Assembly: GCF_000943545.1 (NCBI RefSeq)
Contig: NZ_JTHP01000005.1
Location: 1 to 64,000, forward strand
Length of the DNA stretch: 64,000 nt
Reading direction: 5' to 3'
Source of the DNA: Paenibacillus terrae
GTDB lineage: Bacteria > Bacillota > Bacilli > Paenibacillales > Paenibacillaceae
The notes under the pieces: generated by a model
Databases searched by the model: none
What the model was told of the DNA's origin: nothing
What the model saw: the letters and a program-made list of their open reading frames with translations, nothing else
Translations under genes and position numbers: made by a program
Shown: positions 2,110 through 50,399 of the stretch, piece by piece
How positions within the stretch are numbered: position 1 is the first letter of the stretch
Layout of the letters: every line of letters starts with the position of its first letter

Positions 2110-2932
2110 CCACCTGGGTGGTGTTAATTGGAGGAACCTGCTGTTTTGACTTCCTCCAGCATTTTATCGTTATAGCCAAACATCCAGGTCAGGACAAAAG
2201 CTACAGCCATAGCAGCCACGTTCGCCAAAATATAAAGCGGAAGCTGATGATTCATGTAGAGCAATGTACCCGGAATGACCGTAATAGCCATACCTGTTGC
2301 CGCCAAATGGAAGATCGAAGCGATAAACCCGCCGACTGCCCCACCGATCAGGCCCATGACAAAAGGCTTCATATATCTCAGGTTGACCCCGAAAATAGTC
2401 GGCTCCGTAATCCCCAGAAAAGCGGACAACGAGGAAGGAAGCGCTAACGCTTTCAGCTTGCTGTTCTTCGTTTTCAGCCCAACCGCCAGACAAGCCGCAC
2501 CTTGGGCAGCCATAGCGCAAGTAATAATCGCGTTGAAGGCGTTTACTCCGTTCTTTTCAAGCAGTTGAATTTCCAGAAAATTAAATATATGATGCACGCC
2601 CGTAACTACGATAATCTGATGCAGAAAACCGATGACAATCCCTGCGATACCGAAAGGCAAATCCAGTACAAACGTCGTTCCTTGCAGTACCCACTCTTCA
2701 AGTGAATGGAAAACCGGACCGATGGCAAACAGCCCCAGTATAATCATGATCAACAGTGTTAAAAACGGTGTAAGAATCAGATCCAGCGCTTCGAGCACCC
2801 GTTTGCGCAGCCCCCGTTCCAGCTTGGCTCCAATTAAACCTACGAAAAAGGCTGGCAATACCGAGCCCTGATAACCGACCACAGGGATGAAGCCGAACAT
2901 CGTCAAGGGCTGAGCTGAGCCGTCCGCAACAG
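2110..2932 (-). repeat. Partial copy of the scrA 3' region (823 bp)
   Basis: These 823 bases match 4584-5406 without any indel and with few substitutions, and begin at CCACCTGGGTGG in both copies. Similarity stops abruptly at 2932, where intron-like sequence begins. It is the displaced half of a direct duplication bounding 2933-4583. Confidence 0.93.
2124..2932 (-). pseudogene. scrA: Sucrose PTS IIBC fragment, C-terminal part
   Basis: An open frame of about 260 codons matches the C-terminal half of the intact sucrose PTS permease at 4598-6016. It lacks the whole IIB domain, including the phosphorylated cysteine, and the first IIC membrane segments. Differences from the intact copy are scattered substitutions (T for A after the ITEP motif region, L for P in the KRVPEAL stretch). 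It has no promoter or ribosome site of its own because its 5' side runs into a group II intron fragment, so it is a remnant. Confidence 0.92.
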
Positions 2933-3589: not shown

Positions 3590-4174
3590 TTAATAACCCA
3601 TGAATCCGTTCCCTGAAATAGTGTAGTCATTTAAATTATTAACTAACATTTGGTATTGTCCAGCTTCTGGTACCTTGATTTCAAATTTTGTATTCGTGCC
3701 TGTATATCTTCCAGAAACGATGCGAACCTTGCCCAAATAATCTCTACTCACAAGTGTATAACCTACATTGGGTTGAGACCAAGAACTATCATCTCCCCAC
3801 TGCACCACACTTACAGGCACATACCCTGCATAACCAATTGAAAACTTATCTGACCAAAATCCATCGTTACGACTTAGGTGGCTAAATGACCAAGATGGCA
3901 CAGCCATAGGGGAAATTTTTTCAATGGATTGAGTTTTATCGCTTTTTACAATTACTGATTCCAGTGGAACTGCATTGGCTATAGCCTCATTATACTCTTC
4001 AAGCGTCAAACCGCTCAAGAGCGTATCCGAATTAACAATTGAGGAGTAGGGTGGGAATAGGGACTGGTCAGAAGCGTCTTTAGCCGATGAAGATGAATCT
4101 GCATAAGAGCTTGCAGGATTCAATCCAATGGCCACTAACATAATAAATAGCATTGTTACAAGAAGTTTTTTCAC
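3590..4174 (-). CDS. Exported protein of unknown function
   Basis: A 194-residue protein with a clear Sec signal (KKLLVTMLFIMLVAIGL, cleavage near SSYA). The GTG at 4174 is preferred over the upstream ATG at 4207 because GGAGG lies nine bases before it and it starts directly at the lysines of the signal. The mature part has a Ser-rich start and a C-terminal half rich in aromatic residues and Gly, with beta-like patterns. No family is recognised. It is first in a two-gene unit with the membrane protein at 3192. An extracellular or wall-associated role is inferred only from export. Confidence 0.72.
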   Translation of the reverse strand: MKKLLVTMLFIMLVAIGLNPASSYADSSSSAKDASDQSLFPPYSSIVNSDTLLSGLTLEEYNEAIANAVPLESVIVKSDKTQSIEKISPMAVPSWSFSHLSRNDGFWSDKFSIGYAGYVPVSVVQWGDDSSWSQPNVGYTLVSRDYLGKVRIVSGRYTGTNTKFEIKVPEAGQYQMLVNNLNDYTISGNGFMGY

Positions 4175-4583
4175 AGATAATTGCCTCCAAATACTAAATT
4201 TTAACAACGTTTATATGATAACATACAAAATAACCATCGTATATATACTTTTTGAAATTTTTACCTCATTGACATAAAATTTTGTTTTTCGGGATTTGAT
4301 AAAAATCGCTACAGTTTGTCAAGGAATACCGCATTAAAGGAAGGAAACTATTCTACTACCCAAGTCCATGCCATTGTAAATACTCTGGCAACCCGTTGCG
4401 TTCCGAACTGACTGGCGGCCAAAGTCATGATGCGTAACCGGATACGAAATGCTAAAGTTTAAAGAAAAACGGCCGCCCCACTTGGATGCTTTCTCTAGCA
4501 GCCCTTTTTAACAAGGGGTGAGAGCGCTCCAAAGTAGAACGACCGTTACATTTAATTCCTAGGCGTGTGCTTACTTATTCATA
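4175..4583 (-). other. Gap with no confident gene
   Basis: About 410 bases separate the exported protein from the end of scrA. The part next to 4174 is AT-rich and probably holds the promoter of the small-gene pair. The part at about 4320-4560 is more GC-rich and contains a minus-strand reading frame of roughly 35 codons (TLAFRIRLRIMTLAASQFG) with no ribosome site. It may be the remnant of a lost gene; I cannot identify it. Confidence 0.5.
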
Positions 4584-5406
4584 CCACCTGGGTGGTGTTA
4601 ATTGGAGGAACCTGCTGTTTTGACTTCCTCCAGCATTTTATCATTATAGCCGAACATCCAGGTCAGGACAAAAGCTACTGTCATAGCAGCCACGTTCGCC
4701 AAAATATAAAGCGGAAGCTGATGGTTCATGTAGAGCAATGTACCCGGAATGACCGTAATGGCCATACCTGTAGCCGCCAAATGGAAGATCGAAGCGATAA
4801 ACCCGCCGACTGCCCCACCGATCAGGCCCATGACAAAAGGCTTCATATATCTCAGGTTAACCCCGAAAATAGCCGGCTCTGTAATCCCCAGAAAAGCGGA
4901 CAACGAGGAAGGAAGCGCTAACGCTTTCAGCTTGCTGTTCTTCGTTTTCAGTCCAACCGCCAGACAAGCCGCACCTTGGGCAGCCATAGCGCAAGTAATG
5001 ATCGCGTTGAAAGCGTTTACTCCGTTCTTTTCGAGCAGTTGAATTTCCAGAAAATTAAATATATGATGCACACCCGTAACTACGACAATTTGATGCAGAA
5101 AACCGATAACAATCCCTGCGATACCGAAAGGCAAATCCAGTACAAACGTCGTTCCTTGCAGTACCCACTCTTCAAGAGAATGGAAAACCGGACCGATAGC
5201 AAACAGCCCCAGTATAATCATGATCAACAGTGTTAAAAACGGTGTAAGAATCAGATCCAGCGCTTCGGGTACCCGTTTGCGCAGCCCCCGTTCCAGCTTG
5301 GCTCCAATTAAACCTACGAAAAAGGCTGGCAATACCGAGCCCTGATAACCAACCACAGGGATGAAGCCGAACATCGTCAAGGGATGAGCTGAGCCGTCCG
5401 CAACAG
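4584..5406 (-). repeat. Intact-gene copy of the duplicated scrA 3' region
   Basis: This is the partner of 2110-2932, with equal length and collinear without gaps. Both copies include the stop codon and the CCACCTGGGTGG motif just beyond it. Confidence 0.93.
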
Positions 5407-6016
5407 CATAGGCGTTGGGCAAGGCCGGATTCACCAGCATCAAACCGAGAACGATACCGAGCACCGGGCTGCCGCCGAATACTCTAAAGGCTGACCACGC
5501 GACCAGCGCAGGTAGAAAAGCAAAAGCCGTATCCGTCAATACTTGGGTAAACAATAGGAAATTCGGTGAAATATCCTGCGGCGTCATGCCGAACAGGGCC
5601 AGAATTTGCGGCTGGGTAAGCAAGCCGCGCAAGCCCATGAACAGCCCCGTAGCAACCAGCACCGGAATGATCGGTACAAATACGTCGCCAAAGGTACGAA
5701 TGGAGCGTTGGAAGACGTTGCCTTCCTTTTTCCCCTGACTCTTCACTTCTTCTTTAGAGGATCCGGTCACTCCGAGCTTCTCGACCTCTTCAAAAATCCG
5801 ATTGACCGTACCTGTACCAAAAATAATCTGATACTGACCCGAGTTAAAAAAAGCTCCTTTGACCTTGTCGATTTCTTCAACCTTTTTCTGGTCAATCTTC
5901 TCCTTGTCATGCACCATAATCCGCAGGCGTGTCGCGCAGTGAGCAAAGGACGCAATATTATCCTTCCCACCGATTGCTTGGATCACTTCTTTGGCTATTT
6001 CCCGGTTCTCCGTCAT
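4598..6016 (-). CDS. scrA: Sucrose-specific PTS IIBC component
   Basis: This 472-residue permease imports sucrose and phosphorylates it to sucrose-6-phosphate. The N-terminal IIB domain (about residues 1-85) carries the phosphorylated cysteine C27 in FAHCATRLRI; the remainder is a polytopic IIC domain with the conserved HHIFN and GITEP motifs. No IIA domain is present, so a IIA from another system must supply phosphate. The ATG at 6016 is chosen because GAGAGG precedes it by nine bases. It lies 69 bases after scrB on the same strand and downstream of a LacI-type repressor, a classic sucrose regulon. Its 3' 823 bp are duplicated at 2110-2932. Confidence 0.93.
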   Translation of the reverse strand: MTENREIAKEVIQAIGGKDNIASFAHCATRLRIMVHDKEKIDQKKVEEIDKVKGAFFNSGQYQIIFGTGTVNRIFEEVEKLGVTGSSKEEVKSQGKKEGNVFQRSIRTFGDVFVPIIPVLVATGLFMGLRGLLTQPQILALFGMTPQDISPNFLLFTQVLTDTAFAFLPALVAWSAFRVFGGSPVLGIVLGLMLVNPALPNAYAVADGSAHPLTMFGFIPVVGYQGSVLPAFFVGLIGAKLERGLRKRVPEALDLILTPFLTLLIMIILGLFAIGPVFHSLEEWVLQGTTFVLDLPFGIAGIVIGFLHQIVVVTGVHHIFNFLEIQLLEKNGVNAFNAIITCAMAAQGAACLAVGLKTKNSKLKALALPSSLSAFLGITEPAIFGVNLRYMKPFVMGLIGGAVGGFIASIFHLAATGMAITVIPGTLLYMNHQLPLYILANVAAMTVAFVLTWMFGYNDKMLEEVKTAGSSN

Positions 6017-6085
6017 GATGTTCATCCTCTCGTTCATTCCGTTATGTTATTGATGATTAACGATCCACTTGATGATGTTGAATAT

Positions 6086-8944: not shown

Positions 8945-9787
8945 TTAAAAATCAAAGTTATCCGGATCAGGACCTACCCGATGATTCGCATTTAACGCCT
9001 GAATTCGGTCCATATCCTCTTGCGTCAATTCAAAATCAAAAATGTCGGCATTTTCGACAATCCGATGCGCCTTGGTAGACTTGGGAATGGTGACAACTCC
9101 CTGCTGCACATCCCAGCGCAAAATCACTTGCGCCACCGATTTGCCATACTTGGTCGCTATGTCTTGCAGTACCGCATGATCAAGCAATTGGCCTTGCATT
9201 AACGGGGACCAGGCTTCCATTTGAATGTTGTTCTTTTGACAGAATTGCAGTAGCTCGGTTTGTGTTAATTGTGGATGAAACTCCACCTGATTCACCATTG
9301 GCGTGATTTCAGCATCCTTCATAAGGTCCTCCAAATGATGAATCTGGAAGTTGCTGACTCCGATTGCCTTGATCCGCCCTTCTTTATACAAGGACTCCAA
9401 AGCTCTCCAGGCTTCTTTATACTTGCCTTGAACCGGCCAATGAATCAGATACAGATCCAGATAGTCCAGACCCAGCTTGTCCAGACTTACTTCATAGGCT
9501 GCCCGTGTCTCTTCATACCCCAAATCGGCATTCCACACTTTGGACGTTACGAAAAGGTCTTCTCTGGACAGGTTATTTTCCTGAAGAGCCTCGCCGATGG
9601 CTTGTCCTACACTGTTTTCGTTGGCATAAGCTGCGGCTGTATCTATACTGCGATAACCATGCTTCACAGCCGTTTTGATGGCATCGACCAGCTCTGAGCC
9701 TTCCTCCACTTTAAATACCCCGATTCCGAACCAAGGCATGTGAACTCCGTTGTGCAATGTTGTTGTGCTTTGTAAGTTTTGAGTCAT
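8945..9787 (-). CDS. Aldo/keto reductase
   Basis: A 280-residue NADPH-dependent reductase of aldehydes and ketones. The catalytic tetrad is visible as D49, Y54 (SIDTAAAY), K83 (VTSKVWN) and H116 (LIHWP); IPKS near the C-terminus is the NADP phosphate-binding motif. It resembles the YvgN glyoxal reductase group. It is encoded 24 bases after the MFS transporter on the same strand and probably shares its transcript, so a joint detoxification role controlled by the divergent HxlR regulator is plausible. The natural substrate is unknown. Confidence 0.92.
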   Translation of the reverse strand: MTQNLQSTTTLHNGVHMPWFGIGVFKVEEGSELVDAIKTAVKHGYRSIDTAAAYANENSVGQAIGEALQENNLSREDLFVTSKVWNADLGYEETRAAYEVSLDKLGLDYLDLYLIHWPVQGKYKEAWRALESLYKEGRIKAIGVSNFQIHHLEDLMKDAEITPMVNQVEFHPQLTQTELLQFCQKNNIQMEAWSPLMQGQLLDHAVLQDIATKYGKSVAQVILRWDVQQGVVTIPKSTKAHRIVENADIFDFELTQEDMDRIQALNANHRVGPDPDNFDF

Positions 9788-11773: not shown

Positions 11774-12613
11774 ATGAAAAAAAACTGGAGAGTTTGCTTG
11801 TCCAGCATGTTTGCTATTTTCCTGGTTGTGTCGGCAACCGGATGTAATGCTCAGCCCGCCACTTCCAAATCTACGATTACTTCGTCTTCACCGACTGGTA
11901 GCGCCGCCCATGCGGTTGTTCAGAAAAATCCACACTGGTCCTATGAGGGAGAGGAGGGACCGGAACATTGGGGAGAGCTGGAAAAGGATTTCGCCGCTTG
12001 TGGTAATGGCCACGAACAATCCCCTGTCAACATAGAACATACTCGAATGGAAGCTTCGCAAACGCAGCAGCCGATACAGGTTCACTACACCAATACGAAA
12101 GTATCCATTCTGAATAATGGACACACCATTCAAATCAATGCAGCCAGCCCCGGTAATACTATTGTACTGGATGGTACTAAATTCACTTTAAAGCAGTTTC
12201 ACTTCCATCATCCTAGTGAACACCAAATAGATGGTAAAAATGCCGATATGGAGCTTCATTTTGTTCATCAGGGTGACAACGGCAGCACCGCCGTCTTAGG
12301 CGTACTCATTCAAGGCGGCAAGGAGAATAAGGCTTTCAGCCGTATTTGGTCCAAACTTCCAAAAGATGTTTCCCAGGAAGAGGCTCTGGAGGGAGAACTG
12401 AATCTCGCTACTCTTCTGCCGAAGGACCTGCACTCGATTCGCTATAACGGATCTCTGACCACTCCGCCATGCACAGAGCATGTGAACTGGACAGTGCTGG
12501 AACAACCCATTGAAATGTCGGCCGACCAAATCAGTCAGTTCGCCACCCTTTTTCCCGATAACCATCGTCCTGTACAACAACTGGGAGCCCGTGAACTGAC
12601 TGCCGATAAATAA
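11774..12613 (+). CDS. Alpha-type carbonic anhydrase lipoprotein
   Basis: A 279-residue exported enzyme hydrating CO2 to bicarbonate. A signal ends in the lipobox SATGC, so it is probably lipid-anchored outside the membrane. The mature domain starts HWSYEGEEGPEHWGEL and has the zinc histidines in FHFHHPSEH and ELHFVH, the QSPVNI motif, and SLTTPPCTEHVNW, all hallmarks of alpha carbonic anhydrase. Length is normal. It stands alone, followed by a strong hairpin terminator. Confidence 0.95.
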   Translation: MKKNWRVCLSSMFAIFLVVSATGCNAQPATSKSTITSSSPTGSAAHAVVQKNPHWSYEGEEGPEHWGELEKDFAACGNGHEQSPVNIEHTRMEASQTQQPIQVHYTNTKVSILNNGHTIQINAASPGNTIVLDGTKFTLKQFHFHHPSEHQIDGKNADMELHFVHQGDNGSTAVLGVLIQGGKENKAFSRIWSKLPKDVSQEEALEGELNLATLLPKDLHSIRYNGSLTTPPCTEHVNWTVLEQPIEMSADQISQFATLFPDNHRPVQQLGARELTADK

Positions 12614-45610: not shown

Positions 45611-46264
45611 ATGAAGGCAGTGATTTTTGACTTGGACGGCGTGATTACAGATACGGCCGAATACCATTTTCAGGCATGGGGCAGCTTGGCGGCAACGTTG
45701 GGTATTCCTTTTGATCGAGAATTTAATGAGCAGCTAAAAGGGATCAGCCGTTCAGAGTCACTCGACAAAATATTGGCGCGCGGTGATCGGTCCAGCGCGT
45801 ATTCAGCCGATGACAAGCAGGAACTGGCCGCACAGAAAAATACGGAGTACCAGCGGCTCATCTCGGCTTTGACCCCGGCAGACGTACTACCAGGCATCCG
45901 CCCGCTTCTGACGGAGCTTCGTGAAGCCCGAATCGGCATCGCGCTGGCCTCTGCGAGCAAAAATGCAGCGTTTATACTGGATAGGCTGGAGCTGACGCAC
46001 TATTTTGGCAGTGTGGTGGATGTCACAGCCATTCGGCATGGCAAACCCGACCCGGAAATTTTCCTCACCGGAGCCGTCAATCTGGGCGTTCAGCCTGCCG
46101 ACTGTATTGGTATAGAGGACGCTCAGGCGGGAATTCAGGCGATCAAGGGTGCAGGGATGTTCGCGGTCGGTGTGGGCACGCCCTCGCAAATGCAGGGTGC
46201 CGATATCGTGGTGGCTACTACCGCCGAGCTGTCTTTGAGGATGCTGGAGGCGCATTTTATATAA
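45611..46264 (+). CDS. pgmB: Beta-phosphoglucomutase
   Basis: A 217-residue HAD-family enzyme converting beta-glucose-1-phosphate to glucose-6-phosphate. The nucleophile motif is FDLDGVITDTAEYHFQAW with the paired aspartates of the subfamily; KGISR, ASASKN, and GIEDAQAGIQAIKGAG are the other conserved loops. GGGGGAG precedes the ATG. It is 27 bases after the phosphorylase gene. Its last about 300 bp are repeated with roughly 9% divergence at 50093-50399, so the present 3' end may have been brought in with the islet downstream. Confidence 0.94.
   Translation: MKAVIFDLDGVITDTAEYHFQAWGSLAATLGIPFDREFNEQLKGISRSESLDKILARGDRSSAYSADDKQELAAQKNTEYQRLISALTPADVLPGIRPLLTELREARIGIALASASKNAAFILDRLELTHYFGSVVDVTAIRHGKPDPEIFLTGAVNLGVQPADCIGIEDAQAGIQAIKGAGMFAVGVGTPSQMQGADIVVATTAELSLRMLEAHFI
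45964..46264 (+). repeat. pgmB 3' end, left copy of a direct repeat
   Basis: Collinear with 50093-50393, beginning TGCAGCGTTTATACTGGA in both. I count about 26 differences, mostly at third codon positions. The two copies bound the islet at 46265-50092. Confidence 0.9.
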
Positions 46265-46385: not shown

Positions 46386-46772
46386 CTAATAGGTATCCGT
46401 CTTTACTTCCATTGCTTTAGTATCAATAACAGCTCCAACTAGTTTAAGAAAATTAAAGCCCAGTATCCCATCGATCTGCATACCATAATCCATACTTCCA
46501 ATTTCCACCTGGAAATTTTTGAGTGTCGATTCTTCGAGTGTAATGGATTCTAGAAATTTAGTGTAGACATATTCTACGCCACCCACGCCCCGTATAATAT
46601 CAACATCATCATTTCCTTCCGGAACCATACCTATTTCTCGTACTATATCTGCATTCAAAAGCGTGCTGGCAGAACCAGTATCTAGCAGCATTTTGCTTAA
46701 AGTTAACTCTTCTCCCCTAAATGTTACTTTGACCTTGACAAAGGGAAGCTCATATATTTCTGTAATGTTCAT
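46386..46772 (-). CDS. Retropepsin-like aspartic protease domain protein
   Basis: A 128-residue soluble protein with the aspartic protease motif LLDTGSASTLLN and a second conserved region IDGILGFNFLKLVGAVID, as in single-domain retropepsin-like proteins that act as dimers. Its ATG overlaps the TGA of the preceding small gene (ATGA), so the two are translated together. The partner is likely its regulator or substrate. It sits inside the pgmB-bounded islet. The natural target is unknown. Confidence 0.85.
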   Translation of the reverse strand: MNITEIYELPFVKVKVTFRGEELTLSKMLLDTGSASTLLNADIVREIGMVPEGNDDVDIIRGVGGVEYVYTKFLESITLEESTLKNFQVEIGSMDYGMQIDGILGFNFLKLVGAVIDTKAMEVKTDTY

Positions 46773-47026
46773 CTAGGCCCCCTGATCCCCACATAGCGTT
46801 CTTTTGCCGTAACCGTGGCACGAGAGGTGTGAAAAAAACAATACTCACGCTGAGGATCTACTCTGTGCAGCTCATTATACCGCTTAAAAGCATTAGTCGA
46901 ATCATCGAATGTATCAATTACGGTCATTTCTTCAATGAAACGCTGACCATCCTTTGAATAGGCTTTGATTGCCTCAAGTACGACCCATTCATTGGGAAAA
47001 CGTTCTTTAACTTCTTCCCATCGCAT
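46769..47026 (-). CDS. Small partner of the retropepsin-like protein
   Basis: An 85-residue protein starting MRWEEVKERFPNEWVVLEAI, a sequence type I associate with small Firmicutes proteins found in front of retropepsin-like genes; the function is unknown. The ATG at 47026 is chosen because GGAGGTG lies just before it; an upstream ATG at 47041 precedes that site. The stop overlaps the protease start by four bases. A direct repeat stands in its promoter region. Confidence 0.78.
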   Translation of the reverse strand: MRWEEVKERFPNEWVVLEAIKAYSKDGQRFIEEMTVIDTFDDSTNAFKRYNELHRVDPQREYCFFHTSRATVTAKERYVGIRGPR

Positions 47027-47080
47027 TTCAGACACCTCCATTAAAATATCCTGTATTTGAAGAAGAACATATTGTACATA

Positions 47081-47114
47081 ATTCGATATTTTATAATGAT
47101 ATTCGACATTATTA
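47081..47114 (-). promoter_or_regulatory. Promoter region with direct repeats
   Basis: ATTCGATATT at 47081-47090 and ATTCGACATT at 47101-47110 are 20 bases apart, two helical turns, about 60 bases upstream of the retropepsin pair. TATAAT-like sequence lies at the same place on the minus strand. The repeats could be an operator. Confidence 0.45.
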
Positions 47115-47185
47115 TACCATCTTGAGGTACTTTATATCGTAAAAGTCAATGTAAAGTAGCATCATTTTTTCATAATTGATTTAGC

Positions 47186-47256: not shown

Positions 47257-48198
47257 TTATAGTGGTGTTTCGTTATTCATGTATGTTCGTAAATCTTCTT
47301 TTAGTCTCAATAATTTATGGTTATATTCATCTATCATGTGCTGCATTTTTTTAAGTTCCTTAGCACTTTCAGGAGGACTTAATCTCTTTATAATATCGTT
47401 TGCGTTATCTATCTCATGCAGTTGCGCCTTTATTTTACTTTTTCCTCTGTACTTTATACTGTCTTTACTGACTTCAAGAAAAGCATCCGATAATTTCTTA
47501 TTAGAATTCATTAAGAAGTCACTTATTTGTTTATTACTCGCTTGGTGTATGAATAAATCACTCTTTAGATCAAGGATGCCTACCAGGCCTTTTTCAATTT
47601 TCGATAGCATTGTAGTTCTGATCATATCTGTTGTTAAATGTTCAACAATTTCCGGTTTTAATCTGGATAGACTATCCAACCATTTTATCAGATAAGAAAG
47701 ACCTGAGATTGAGTATTTACCACTTTTGAGTTTATCTTCAATCTCAGAGTGCGGATAATAACTGAATATCTTTACACGAGGAGAGACGAAGGCACAACTT
47801 CTATTCATCTTACGGGCAAGCTCATTAAACGAGCATTTGTCCCAATAAATCCACATTTCATAAGTGTGCTTAGCCCATTCATAGACAGTCCAGTCTGATT
47901 TTCCTCCTTGAACGGAACCAAGACGTTCTTGTTCCTCCTCTATGCTTGCGGGAGCCTCAACCAAATAAACTGGTAATTTTTTTTGCGCTAACCTTTTAGC
48001 GGCATACCACCGGCGGTGACCCGATAAGATAATATATTGACTTCCTTTTTGATAACAAGTAATAGGGACTTCCCATCCCTTTTCTTTAATAACCCGTTGT
48101 ATTTCTTCTGTCTTAATCGCATTATTGGTTCGCGGATTAAAAGGATTAGGGATAACATCTTTAATATCTGCCATTATTAGCTTTGAGGTATTTTTCAA
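47257..48198 (-). CDS. ParB-domain protein, second gene of the sigma-ParB cassette
   Basis: A 313-residue protein. A ParB/Spo0J N-terminal domain runs from about residue 10 to 95 (IKDVIPNPFNPRTNN; LSGHRRWYAAKRL in place of GERRxRA), followed by a helix-turn-helix region (FNELARKMNRSCAFVSPRVK) and helical C-terminal parts. It starts at a TTG whose bases overlap the TGA of the upstream gene (TTGA), with GGGGAGGG before it, so translation is coupled. It is similar along about 200 residues to the ParB half of that upstream sigma-ParB protein. No ParA is near, and the GERR motif has His in place of Glu, so it is unlikely to be a standard partition protein. Confidence 0.82.
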   Translation of the reverse strand: MKNTSKLIMADIKDVIPNPFNPRTNNAIKTEEIQRVIKEKGWEVPITCYQKGSQYIILSGHRRWYAAKRLAQKKLPVYLVEAPASIEEEQERLGSVQGGKSDWTVYEWAKHTYEMWIYWDKCSFNELARKMNRSCAFVSPRVKIFSYYPHSEIEDKLKSGKYSISGLSYLIKWLDSLSRLKPEIVEHLTTDMIRTTMLSKIEKGLVGILDLKSDLFIHQASNKQISDFLMNSNKKLSDAFLEVSKDSIKYRGKSKIKAQLHEIDNANDIIKRLSPPESAKELKKMQHMIDEYNHKLLRLKEDLRTYMNNETPL

Positions 48199-49877
48199 GC
48201 TAATCCCTCCCCCGTTAATTCTTGTCTCTTTACTGCGATATTTTCGATTAACTTGTCCAATTCGGTTATTAATTGCTGTGCCTCTTTTTGATCTTTCCAC
48301 TCCAGATTTCCCAAAGACTCGATAGACTTATCTAGCAATTCATACACTTCTTTATAAGTGGCTTGATTCTCCTTCGACCGATTCATGGTCATTTCAATCT
48401 CAGATTGAGCTAATGTCTTGGTTGGATTCGATAAAAAGGAGAGTATCTCATCAGAAGTAGCATTAGTAACAAAACAGCGGTCGTTGGTTATACGGCTGTT
48501 AAAGCATTTATTTTCGTATTTGGTAAGCATCATTTGTCTGATGAAGTCTTCTCCAATAGATTCAACAAATTGGGGTTGATACTGATCTAATCTTCTAATC
48601 CAAGTGAGGATATAATCAAGCATTGTGATTGAGTACATACCATTTGATAATTTATCCTCTATTTCAGCGCGGGGATAGTATTTATAAACACGGATTTTAG
48701 TCTCTACATTTTTTTTGGATATTCCTAATTTATTAGCTAATTGATTATAGGATATACCGCCTGCATATACCCAGCGATCATAGATATTTTTCGCGATTTC
48801 ATAGGGTGTCCAATCGACTTGAACACTTTGTAAAGAACCTAAACGATCCTTTTCTTCGGCGGGACTTGATGGGGGCTCTACGATAAATACGGGTATTTTT
48901 TTATGACCTAAGGCCTTCGCGGCATTCCATCTACGATGTCCGGCCAGCAAAATATAATACTGTCCTTTTTGATAGCATGTTACTGGTTCCTCCCAACTCT
49001 TTGATGTCAGCACTTCTTGTAGTTGTTCTATATTTACCGAAAGATCTTTCCTCGGGTTTTTGGGATTGGCCCATATAAGTTCAATTTCTACCCACTCAAA
49101 ATTTTTCTTTTCATCAGTTTGTGCGGTTTGTCTAATACCCTCCAAATTTGATATTTGCATAAGCAATTCCTCGCTTCTAGTTTTGATTTTTTGGTTATCA
49201 ACCCCACATTTTGCGAGTATCTCATCAATTATCTCTATTAATTGAGAAGCAGGGATGCCGCAATGCTCGATAATATTTTCCCTGCTATAGCCTCCAATTA
49301 GCATTTGTGCAATCTTTTTTTCAATGATAGAAAACCCATTGAAGACTTCAATCTGAAATAAGTCATCCGAACTTTCCTCAGCAGTTACTACATCAATAAG
49401 AAGTTTACTCTGATGGTTTTTTGGGGTTGTGGACGCAGGTTCATATAGATAAACCATATACCTCATGTTTAGAAAATACATTGCTTCAGTGGCCATATTG
49501 GAGGTACACCCTAGTATATATGATATATATTGAGGGGATTGATTAATAAGATCCAACCTTTTAATTCTCAACATGACACTGTTTATTTTTTTACTTGGGC
49601 GTATAAAATTAAAATGTTGCACGATAAAATCTATCATTCTGCCTCTTACAAATTTGCGAGCGTAACTCCAAAAAAAATTATTGCCTGTATTGAAATCATA
49701 TCTTCTATGAGCTTCTATCAGTCCGACATAGCCTTGTTGGACAAGATCTTCTAACAACCATTTGTCATATTTCATCCTTGAGTTAATAAATTTTTTTGCT
49801 GTTCTGGTTATGTTTTTAGAGTAACTCTCCACTAATTCTTCAATTGTTATTTTTTCTTTTGACTGGGACTTAGCCAA
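48195..49877 (-). CDS. Sigma factor-ParB fusion protein
   Basis: A 560-residue protein with two halves. Residues about 10-90 match sigma-70 region 2 (LLEDLVQQGYVGLIEAHRRY, then GNNFFWSYARKFVRGRMIDF), 92-150 look like region 3, and 175-226 like region 4 (IEKKIAQMLIGGYSRENIIE, CGIPASQLIEIIDEI). Residues about 258-345 are a ParB N-terminal domain (NPKNPRKDL, LLAGHRRWNAAKALGHKKIP), followed by an HTH near 375-395 (SYNQLANKLGISKKNVETKI) and a helical C-terminus. TTG at 49877 follows GGGAGGGAGG. The next gene, a ParB paralogue, overlaps by four bases. I know of no described system with this fusion; a promoter-selecting or phage/plasmid-related regulator is possible. AT-rich compared with flanking sugar genes. 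Confidence 0.85.
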   Translation of the reverse strand: MAKSQSKEKITIEELVESYSKNITRTAKKFINSRMKYDKWLLEDLVQQGYVGLIEAHRRYDFNTGNNFFWSYARKFVRGRMIDFIVQHFNFIRPSKKINSVMLRIKRLDLINQSPQYISYILGCTSNMATEAMYFLNMRYMVYLYEPASTTPKNHQSKLLIDVVTAEESSDDLFQIEVFNGFSIIEKKIAQMLIGGYSRENIIEHCGIPASQLIEIIDEILAKCGVDNQKIKTRSEELLMQISNLEGIRQTAQTDEKKNFEWVEIELIWANPKNPRKDLSVNIEQLQEVLTSKSWEEPVTCYQKGQYYILLAGHRRWNAAKALGHKKIPVFIVEPPSSPAEEKDRLGSLQSVQVDWTPYEIAKNIYDRWVYAGGISYNQLANKLGISKKNVETKIRVYKYYPRAEIEDKLSNGMYSITMLDYILTWIRRLDQYQPQFVESIGEDFIRQMMLTKYENKCFNSRITNDRCFVTNATSDEILSFLSNPTKTLAQSEIEMTMNRSKENQATYKEVYELLDKSIESLGNLEWKDQKEAQQLITELDKLIENIAVKRQELTGEGLA

Positions 49878-50092
49878 ATGCCTCCCTCCCTAAAAAAGAC
49901 TATTTTCACAAGTATATTCTAAACTTCTTTGGAAATCTGTCATTCGTCAAAGGTTCTAATAGTTTGATAATAAAGTGTTTTTTTAGACATATAATTGGAT
50001 AATCAGACAAGTAATCTTAGGTCTCATATTGTTTTTAGTGATCTATCAGATCAATTTTATGAAAAAGATGATAGTAGGTATGTGGGCTTCTG

Positions 50093-50399
50093 TGCAGCGT
50101 TTATACTGGACAGGCTGGAGCTGACGCACTATTTTGACAGTGTGGTGGATGTCACAGCCATTCGGCATGGCAAACCCGACCCGGAAATCTTCCTCACCGG
50201 AGCTTCCAATCTGGGCGTTCAGCCTGCCGACTGTATCGGTATAGAGGACGCACAGGCGGGAATCCAGGCGATCAAGAGTGCAAGAATGTTCGCGGTCGGC
50301 GTAGGAACGCCCTCACAAATGCAAGGTGCGGATATCGTGGTGGCCACTACAGCCGAGCTGTCTTTGAGCATGTTGGAGAATCATTTTTTCAGGGGATGA
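50093..50399 (+). pseudogene. pgmB: Displaced pgmB 3' fragment
   Basis: About 100 codons match pgmB from AAFILDRLELTHYF to the end (AELSLSMLENHF), with about 9% nucleotide differences from 45964-46264. The HAD nucleophile part is missing. An open frame runs on upstream to 49995, but that part is unrelated AT-rich sequence. It marks the right border of the islet. Confidence 0.92.

Follow-up and report, generated by a model that had tools for sequence, protein, structure and literature searches.

Gene content and features of the locus

The window analyzed here, a stretch of 64,000 nucleotides from the soil bacterium Paenibacillus terrae, encodes a protein in which a sigma factor part is fused to a ParB-type protein (ParB1), together with an unfused ParB paralog (ParB2). 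The genes and features at this locus are as follows:

45964..46249, plus strand: left direct repeat, 3' part of an intact pgmB-like gene (45611-46264)
46386..46772, minus strand: neighboring gene, PADLOC PDC-M08B/aspartic protease
46769..47041, minus strand: neighboring gene, PADLOC PDC-M08A, candidate defense family (E 5.7e-36)
47100..47120, minus strand: 3'-boundary element ATGGTATAATAATGTCGAATA, in front of the neighboring gene, extended -10-like TGnTATAAT plus TGTCGAA
47195..47220, minus strand: terminator-like hairpin with 11-bp arms, 3' of ParB2
47257..48198, minus strand: ParB2, unfused ParB paralog, TTG start
48195..49877, minus strand: sigma-ParB1 fusion gene, 560 amino acids, TTG start
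48468..49103, minus strand: ParB N-domain and HTH/DNA-binding part of the fusion (residues 259-470), from profile and structure matches
49200..49877, minus strand: sigma part of the fusion (residues 1-226), from SigB alignment, model helices and per-region conservation
49911..49916, minus strand: -10-like TATACT, from alignment
49931..49958, minus strand: upstream cis-element TAGAACCTTTGACGAATGnnAGATTTCC, identical in genome G227 at 26 of 26 specified bases
50093..50378, plus strand: right direct repeat, duplicated pgmB 3' part, the island lying between both repeats

A ribosome-binding-site-like sequence, GGAGGGAGG, is located directly 5' of the TTG start of the fusion, and the TGA of the fusion overlaps the TTG of ParB2, a start codon chosen in the present analysis, by four bases (TTGA, 48195-48198).

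Domain architecture of the sigma-ParB1 fusion

A preliminary description of this DNA had claimed a single 560-residue protein with sigma regions followed by a ParB N-domain and HTH, which is borne out by Pfam, profile and fold matches. Sigma70_r2 (PF04542; residues 15-85, E 4.7e-9) and ParB_N (residues 259-334) both exceeded the curated Pfam cut-offs. With NCBIfam, the sigma70-ECF superfamily model alone lay above its cut-off among the matches listed (25 of 32), and the ParB partition model reached 57.8 bits, slightly below its cut-off of 58.45. Comparison of both halves by profile and structure upheld the kinship with sigma factors: residues 3-214 align continuously with SigB 24-243, and the family profile also aligns with residues 27-241 of the sigma factor 1l0o_C, indicating that region 3 and the 3.2 linker are present. 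Residues 244-397 align with Noc, the best-scoring solved ParB relative. With bounds set in the present analysis, the sigma part is composed of region 2 (12-92), region 3 (93-138), linker 3.2 (139-177) and region 4 (178-226); judged by these alignments, residues 1-226 resemble a whole sigma factor of the SigB/FliA type (group-3-like).

The AlphaFold2 model of the fusion (pLDDT 70; pTM 0.32, too low to place the halves relative to each other) matched ParB/Noc/KorB as well as sigma factors with Foldseek and VIA-align. Its region 4 helices occur in the correct order, and residues 139-178, modeled with low confidence, presumably form a flexible stretch. ParB2 is predicted to adopt the same kind of fold (model pLDDT 84).

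Both Pfam domains are present in 26 of the 36 homologs listed in a search in which scoring was confined to the 7993 candidates sharing most words; the source names are Paenibacillus, Cohnella and Bacillus. The survey for the identical fusion yielded 25 further aligned sequences with the same layout, which form, with the query, the 26 rows of alignment A1 (40-93% identity to the query; a truncated fusion, P0032, was left out). Because these 25 homologs share the layout, the fusion is not a sequencing join and is confirmed as genuine. That a frameshift or the assembly merged two adjoining genes has a negligible probability and is refuted, as 26 aligned sequences of separate genomic and metagenomic origin show the identical junction.

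Conservation of the sigma part

Ten residues in region 2 of the sigma part, L45, Q47, G49, G52, L53, F69, Y72, A73, V77 and G79, are invariant in the 26 fused rows; we take them to be core-binding and -10/melting contacts. D162 of linker 3.2 is likewise invariant in the family alignment. The most conserved sigma stretch is region 2.2, presumably the core-binding face, with a mean pairwise identity of 0.65, on par with that of ParB boxes II and III (0.64-0.66). The conserved core-binding region and the ParB fold support the earlier proposal that promoter recognition may be linked to a module of the ParB type.

In the window's clade, which makes up 15 of the 26 rows, region 4.2 ranges from acidic to neutral (net charge -3 to +1); its net charge is -3 in P0017 and +3 to +6 in the other 10 of 26 rows. 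The acidic to neutral region 4.2 suggests that contact with the -35 element is probably weak in the clade of the window, and the comparison with the mostly basic charge elsewhere that the two fused clades probably differ in this contact.

The putative nucleotide-binding site of the ParB part

Both arginines of the GxRR motif are invariant in the 26 fused rows. The GERRxR phosphate motif itself reads GHRR in 26/26 of them, and GHRR with retained arginines is also found in 39/39 ParB2 rows. The glutamine of NPxQPR and the EN of box III, residues associated with hydrolysis and clamp closing, are also missing: NPxQPR has become NPxNPR, with N274 invariant in all 26 rows, and box III begins with GSLQ, GSVQ, SSVQ or SSIQ there. 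Unfused ParB1 and ParB2 relatives share these motif changes, which accordingly did not originate with the fusion; GHRR predates it and had to be rejected as its mark.

The assumption that nucleotide use may differ was reasonable (E to H in GERR, Q to N in NPxQPR and loss of the box III EN in 26/26 fused rows). In Myxococcus xanthus ParB the exchanges Q52A and E93A cause defective hydrolysis (PMC9178275), and we propose that these positions correspond to N274 and H314 of the fusion. On the other hand, KorB with GARR remains a CTPase (PMC11790492) and VirB binds CTP though it is devoid of one of the two hydrolysis residues (PMC10770331). According to one clause in Kaljevic et al. (2025; PNAS, PMC12704722), a bacterial fusion of a ParB-CTPase fold to Sigma70 domains bound ATP in DRaCALA assays; the same source reports that P-motif R to A controls abolished nucleotide binding, that 17 of 28 proteins tested bound no nucleotide, and that sequence and AlphaFold3 are unreliable predictors of the nucleotide bound. 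Taken together, the replaced hydrolysis residues, the behavior of KorB and VirB, the ATP-binding Sigma70 fusion and the 17 of 28 non-binders lead to a graded verdict: nucleotide binding by the fusion is likely, if not assured, ATP is as plausible a ligand as CTP, and strong hydrolysis is doubtful.

The fusion is part of a two-gene cassette

In 9/9 complete loci read (the window, L007-L011 and L024-L026), ParB1 is followed by ParB2 on the same strand, with ParB1 being fused in five and unfused in four. A further locus, L028, starts inside the cassette at a contig end, and ParB2 of L009 contains an in-frame stop. The distance matrices of ParB1 and ParB2 correlate with r 0.94 for 29 pairs (0/2000 permutations as high), 22 of the 29 pairs being matched solely by equal size of the source sequence and common descent alone being sufficient to produce a correlation. 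No gene for a ParA partner was noticed by eye in the ORF lists examined. The real unit is thus a two-gene cassette consisting of the fusion and the unfused ParB2. Selection acts on this cassette in L007/L008, the one related pair computed, where dN and dS (NG86) amount to 0.113/0.573 for sigma, 0.122/0.563 for ParB1 and 0.096/0.530 for ParB2, i.e., dN/dS is about 0.2 in both halves of the fusion.

Distribution and origin

The family is patchily distributed. With three candidates scored per genome, matches were found in 7/394 genomes of the bacterial family, the full fusion occurring in three of these (G000, G227 and G277), and 14/392 genomes match order-wide when sigma-only relatives are included. 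A phage origin was rejected, as none of 38 pattern matches in IMG/VR was confirmed as a relative; the phage records contained merely weak ParB matches, in 4 of 50,697. Residence of the cassette on plasmids was also rejected: 13 of 72,556 plasmid records match, none of them reaching 80% query coverage. An unfused relative is carried by the Priestia megaterium plasmid pFDU301A.

Common descent of the family is apparent from a midpoint-rooted tree of 132 ParB domains retained after length and duplicate filters, in which the split between ParB1 and ParB2 comes first. The 35 sigma-bearing rows require two changes on this tree, which fits an older ParB pair that gained the sigma part once and later lost it once. 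A second gain or loss may have occurred, since the root is a midpoint and the node that unites both fused halves with an unfused clade is weakly resolved. Pairs of Bacillaceae and Paenibacillus that have no sigma part fall outside the fused clades. In L025 the sigma part has been lost, with a remnant of the sigma C-terminus still present upstream (E 0.002).

Sigma relatives without ParB (L051-L053 and L056) bear other C-terminal extensions. These cousin sigma factors (L051 7331-8383, L052 5778-6725, L053 5711-6724, minus strand) have extensions that look HTH-like by eye, Pfam naming none in L051 and L053, and the L052 gene directly adjoins a tmRNA 3' remnant. In genome G123, periodic translated repeats resembling CRISPR arrays by eye occur at L025 16927-19330 and L051 3419-4144, on the contig that also carries the cassette with the lost sigma part.

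Insertion at gene 3' ends and neighboring genes

The direct repeats of a target-gene 3' end around the window's insert (pgmB) are 286 bp long and 92.3% identical. In genomes G060 and G063, a single pgmB copy without insert is present and both repeats of the window align with that locus. The insert has a GC content of 36% vs. 47% for the window. In other loci, pieces of the tmRNA 3' end take this position: they occur on both sides in 4/10 cassette loci and on at least one side in 7/10, all within 7 kb, the piece in L010 being weak (E 4e-5) and 6 kb away. Such a piece was found in 1/10 other loci (L052); these control loci span about 9.5-13.5 kb and most cassette loci 11-22.5 kb, a difference in length that favors hits in the cassette loci. 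The decayed cassette L071 also has a piece. L009 contains nothing but the pair between its two tmRNA 3'-end copies (9559-9619 and 11941-12067), and L011 and L025 contain neither gene-3'-end repeats nor tmRNA pieces. By these arrangements the cassette is a resident of gene-3'-end insertions and appears mobile. No integrase was recognized by eye between the pgmB repeats of the window, the other islands having been partly scanned; judged by eye, L024 includes an IS3-like transposase. The ssrA islands of Dehalococcoides (PMC3146451) are likewise inserted at the tmRNA gene; the units described here differ from them in that the window uses pgmB and no integrase was recognized by eye in the cassette units.

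A second partial gene duplication lies elsewhere in the window (2124-2906 and 4598-6037, minus strand), where a 260-residue frame is, by eye, nearly identical to the C-terminal part of a 479-residue PTS-permease-like protein; a gene for 205 residues (3590-4207) is situated between the copies, a layout resembling the pgmB repeat.

Neighboring genes encode Fic/Doc, HipA_C, DUF3800, a TOTE primase-helicase or PDC-M08 in at least one locus, none of them being universal. PDC-M08A and PDC-M08B adjoin the cassette in the window and lie within 4 kb of it in L026. PDC-M08B matches are strikingly common, occurring in 209/394 genomes of the family, so their proximity says little and an association of PDC-M08 with the cassette was rejected; we take PDC-M08A as cargo outside the cassette. 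No mention of PDC-M08 was found in the literature among the matches listed.

DNA elements bracketing the cassette

The cassette is flanked by two DNA elements in the window as well as in G227, a relative with 68% identity in the fusion. The upstream element includes a Spo0A-box-like 7-mer, TGACGAA (49943-49949), and TATACT or TATAAT stands in register in the six aligned loci that have the element. With up to three mismatches it occurs in 8/394 genomes, the reversed-pattern control giving none: two have the cassette, one a decayed cassette (L071), and three carry the element before a small gene, gene X; the matches in G105 and G175 (three mismatches each) look accidental. The upstream block and TATAMT box are thus common to the decayed cassette and to gene-X loci of genomes without detected cassette. 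This weakened the element's candidacy as a private binding site of the fusion: as it also precedes another gene where no cassette was found, it does not belong to the fusion alone. Gene X itself is located directly after the cassette in L026 (11766-12936) and is also present in L073, L075 and L076; a full-length HipA_C-type gene follows it in L026 and L076.

In the window and in G227, the 3' element, ATGRTATAATARTGTYGAATA, is located 3' of ParB2, and in G075 it is located 3' of the decayed copy; in each of the three loci a different gene follows it. The pattern was derived from these loci and therefore necessarily matches them exactly. In a search of 216 genomes (G227 being outside the sample), no further genome contained it within one mismatch, and 25 other places matched, all with two mismatches, vs. 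eight for the reversed pattern, a control in which the common TATAAT is lost as well. By eye, the element is absent after ParB2 in L007, L008, L009, L010, L011, L024, L025 and L028. The element is similar to an extended -10 promoter, and we regard it as the leading candidate target. Palindrome scans upstream of the cassettes revealed no common site.

Paenibacillus is a spore-forming genus, and both cassette elements contain the 7-mer TGNCGAA. This sequence is the Spo0A box (PMC7643835). Within 300 bp upstream of the cassette, no Spo0A box was found in L007, L008, L010, L024 and L025; L009 and L011 have one each, elsewhere in the upstream stretch (0.1 per stretch in shuffles). Control of the cassette by Spo0A is thus a lead only.

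Proposed function and alternative explanations

We favor, tentatively and with a probability that falls a little short of even, an alternative sigma factor that drives island promoters while a nucleotide-gated heteropair of ParB proteins keeps it on the DNA. We infer core binding, nucleotide gating, a heterodimer and target promoters in the following way. The fusion would combine a group-3-like sigma factor, a short linker, a ParB-type nucleotide-binding domain and an HTH, with ParB2 encoded alongside. In the most likely arrangement, the ParB1 and ParB2 halves would assemble into a DNA clamp, heterodimeric (or mixed), which would load at an island site upon binding of ATP or CTP, hydrolysis probably being weak. 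Once loaded, the clamp could hold the sigma half and RNA polymerase near island promoters, where -10/extended -10 contact by regions 2-3 together with the ParB HTH may do the work. TGnTATAAT-nn-TGTCGAATA at the 3' edge of the cassette would exemplify such a promoter. A fuller version, in which the nucleotide-gated clamp loads on the island, sigma starts transcription at nearby -10/extended -10 promoters without normal -35 contact and an older ParB pair, already acting on the same DNA, was the starting point for selection of the fusion, is conceivable and clearly on the doubtful side; if true, the island would bring its own local, switchable promoter recognition.

Several findings speak against a tethered sigma factor. 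Residues linked to CTP hydrolysis are replaced and region 4.2 is degenerate. Unfused pairs persist and L025 has lost sigma leaving a remnant, so that sigma is dispensable for the role of the pair there. These unfused pairs, branching outside the fused clades, would suit a ParB pair serving as a Noc-like or partition-like module for island maintenance or DNA organization, with sigma merely tethering it to RNA polymerase or transcribed DNA; the L009 pair, alone between tmRNA copies, and Noc as best-scoring solved relative point the same way. The -10 recognition/melting positions F69, Y72, A73, V77 and G79, however, are invariant, which is more than a tether needs, and we consider this explanation rather unlikely.

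If, instead, the sigma half no longer bound polymerase and were an extra DNA-binding piece or decaying, this would account for the acidic to neutral character of region 4.2 in the clade of the window and for truncation or loss of sigma in P0025, P0029-P0031, P0118, P0120 and L025 (some possibly due to contig ends or start-site calls). Conservation of region 2.2, the dN/dS of about 0.2 in L007/L008 and the retention of both Pfam domains in most listed homologs make this quite improbable. The sigma half might also compete with SigA for core polymerase, shutting down either the host or an invading phage. Bacillus plasmid sigma factors, which we assume to be SigN-like, are among the matches (27% identity), and toxin or conflict genes (Fic/Doc, HipA_C, TOTE primase, PDC-M08) lie near some loci. 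SigN, encoded by a B. subtilis plasmid, is an intrinsically toxic competitor of SigA (PMC10601692). The cassette shows no link to an infection trigger, its loci have no neighboring gene in common and PDC-M08B is widespread in the family, so that a competitor appears improbable.

The natural before/after series of unfused, fused and fusion-lost pairs makes the contribution of sigma to a ParB clamp directly testable; it could also show whether clamp loading replaces -35 recognition.

Comparison with known systems

ParB-fold switches serve in segregation, nucleoid occlusion, repression (KorB) and anti-silencing (VirB). The chromosomal ParB proteins Noc and Spo0J share the ParB N-domain and HTH over residues 244-397/470 of the fusion; the cassette differs from them in GHRR, NPxNPR, the absence of the box III EN, the fused sigma part and the paralogous partner gene. 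KorB of RK2 and VirB of Shigella are likewise ParB-fold, CTP-dependent clamps that regulate transcription (PMC11790492; PMC10770331), KorB as a repressor and VirB as a counter-silencer, and the portions of these sources considered here describe no sigma part for either. SigB, SigF, FliA and SigN of pBS32 have regions 2-3-4 in one chain as well, to which the fusion adds a C-terminal ParB module.

The same two domain types occur in one bacterial protein in the ParB-Sigma70 fusion of Kaljevic et al. (2025), which may belong to the present family or to one with merely a sigma region-4-like HTH fused. The earlier view that no system of this design had been described therefore has to be narrowed: the domain pairing is in print, and the literature covered on sigma-ParB fusions (mainly open-access, with PMC12704722 as the sole relevant source) gave no account of the pair, the islands or the sites. 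The consulted portion of that source describes no partner gene, context, origin or site for its fusion, and its clause is the sole instance, in the literature covered, of a ParB switch joined to the promoter-recognition subunit of polymerase. The bare combination of domains is not what is new here; new are the coupled pair, its likely single origin, its setting in islands and the sites. For a ParB-Sigma70 fusion, the cassette supplies a concrete family along with a partner gene and candidate sites, and it could represent a new way of tying gene switching to a nucleotide-controlled DNA clamp.
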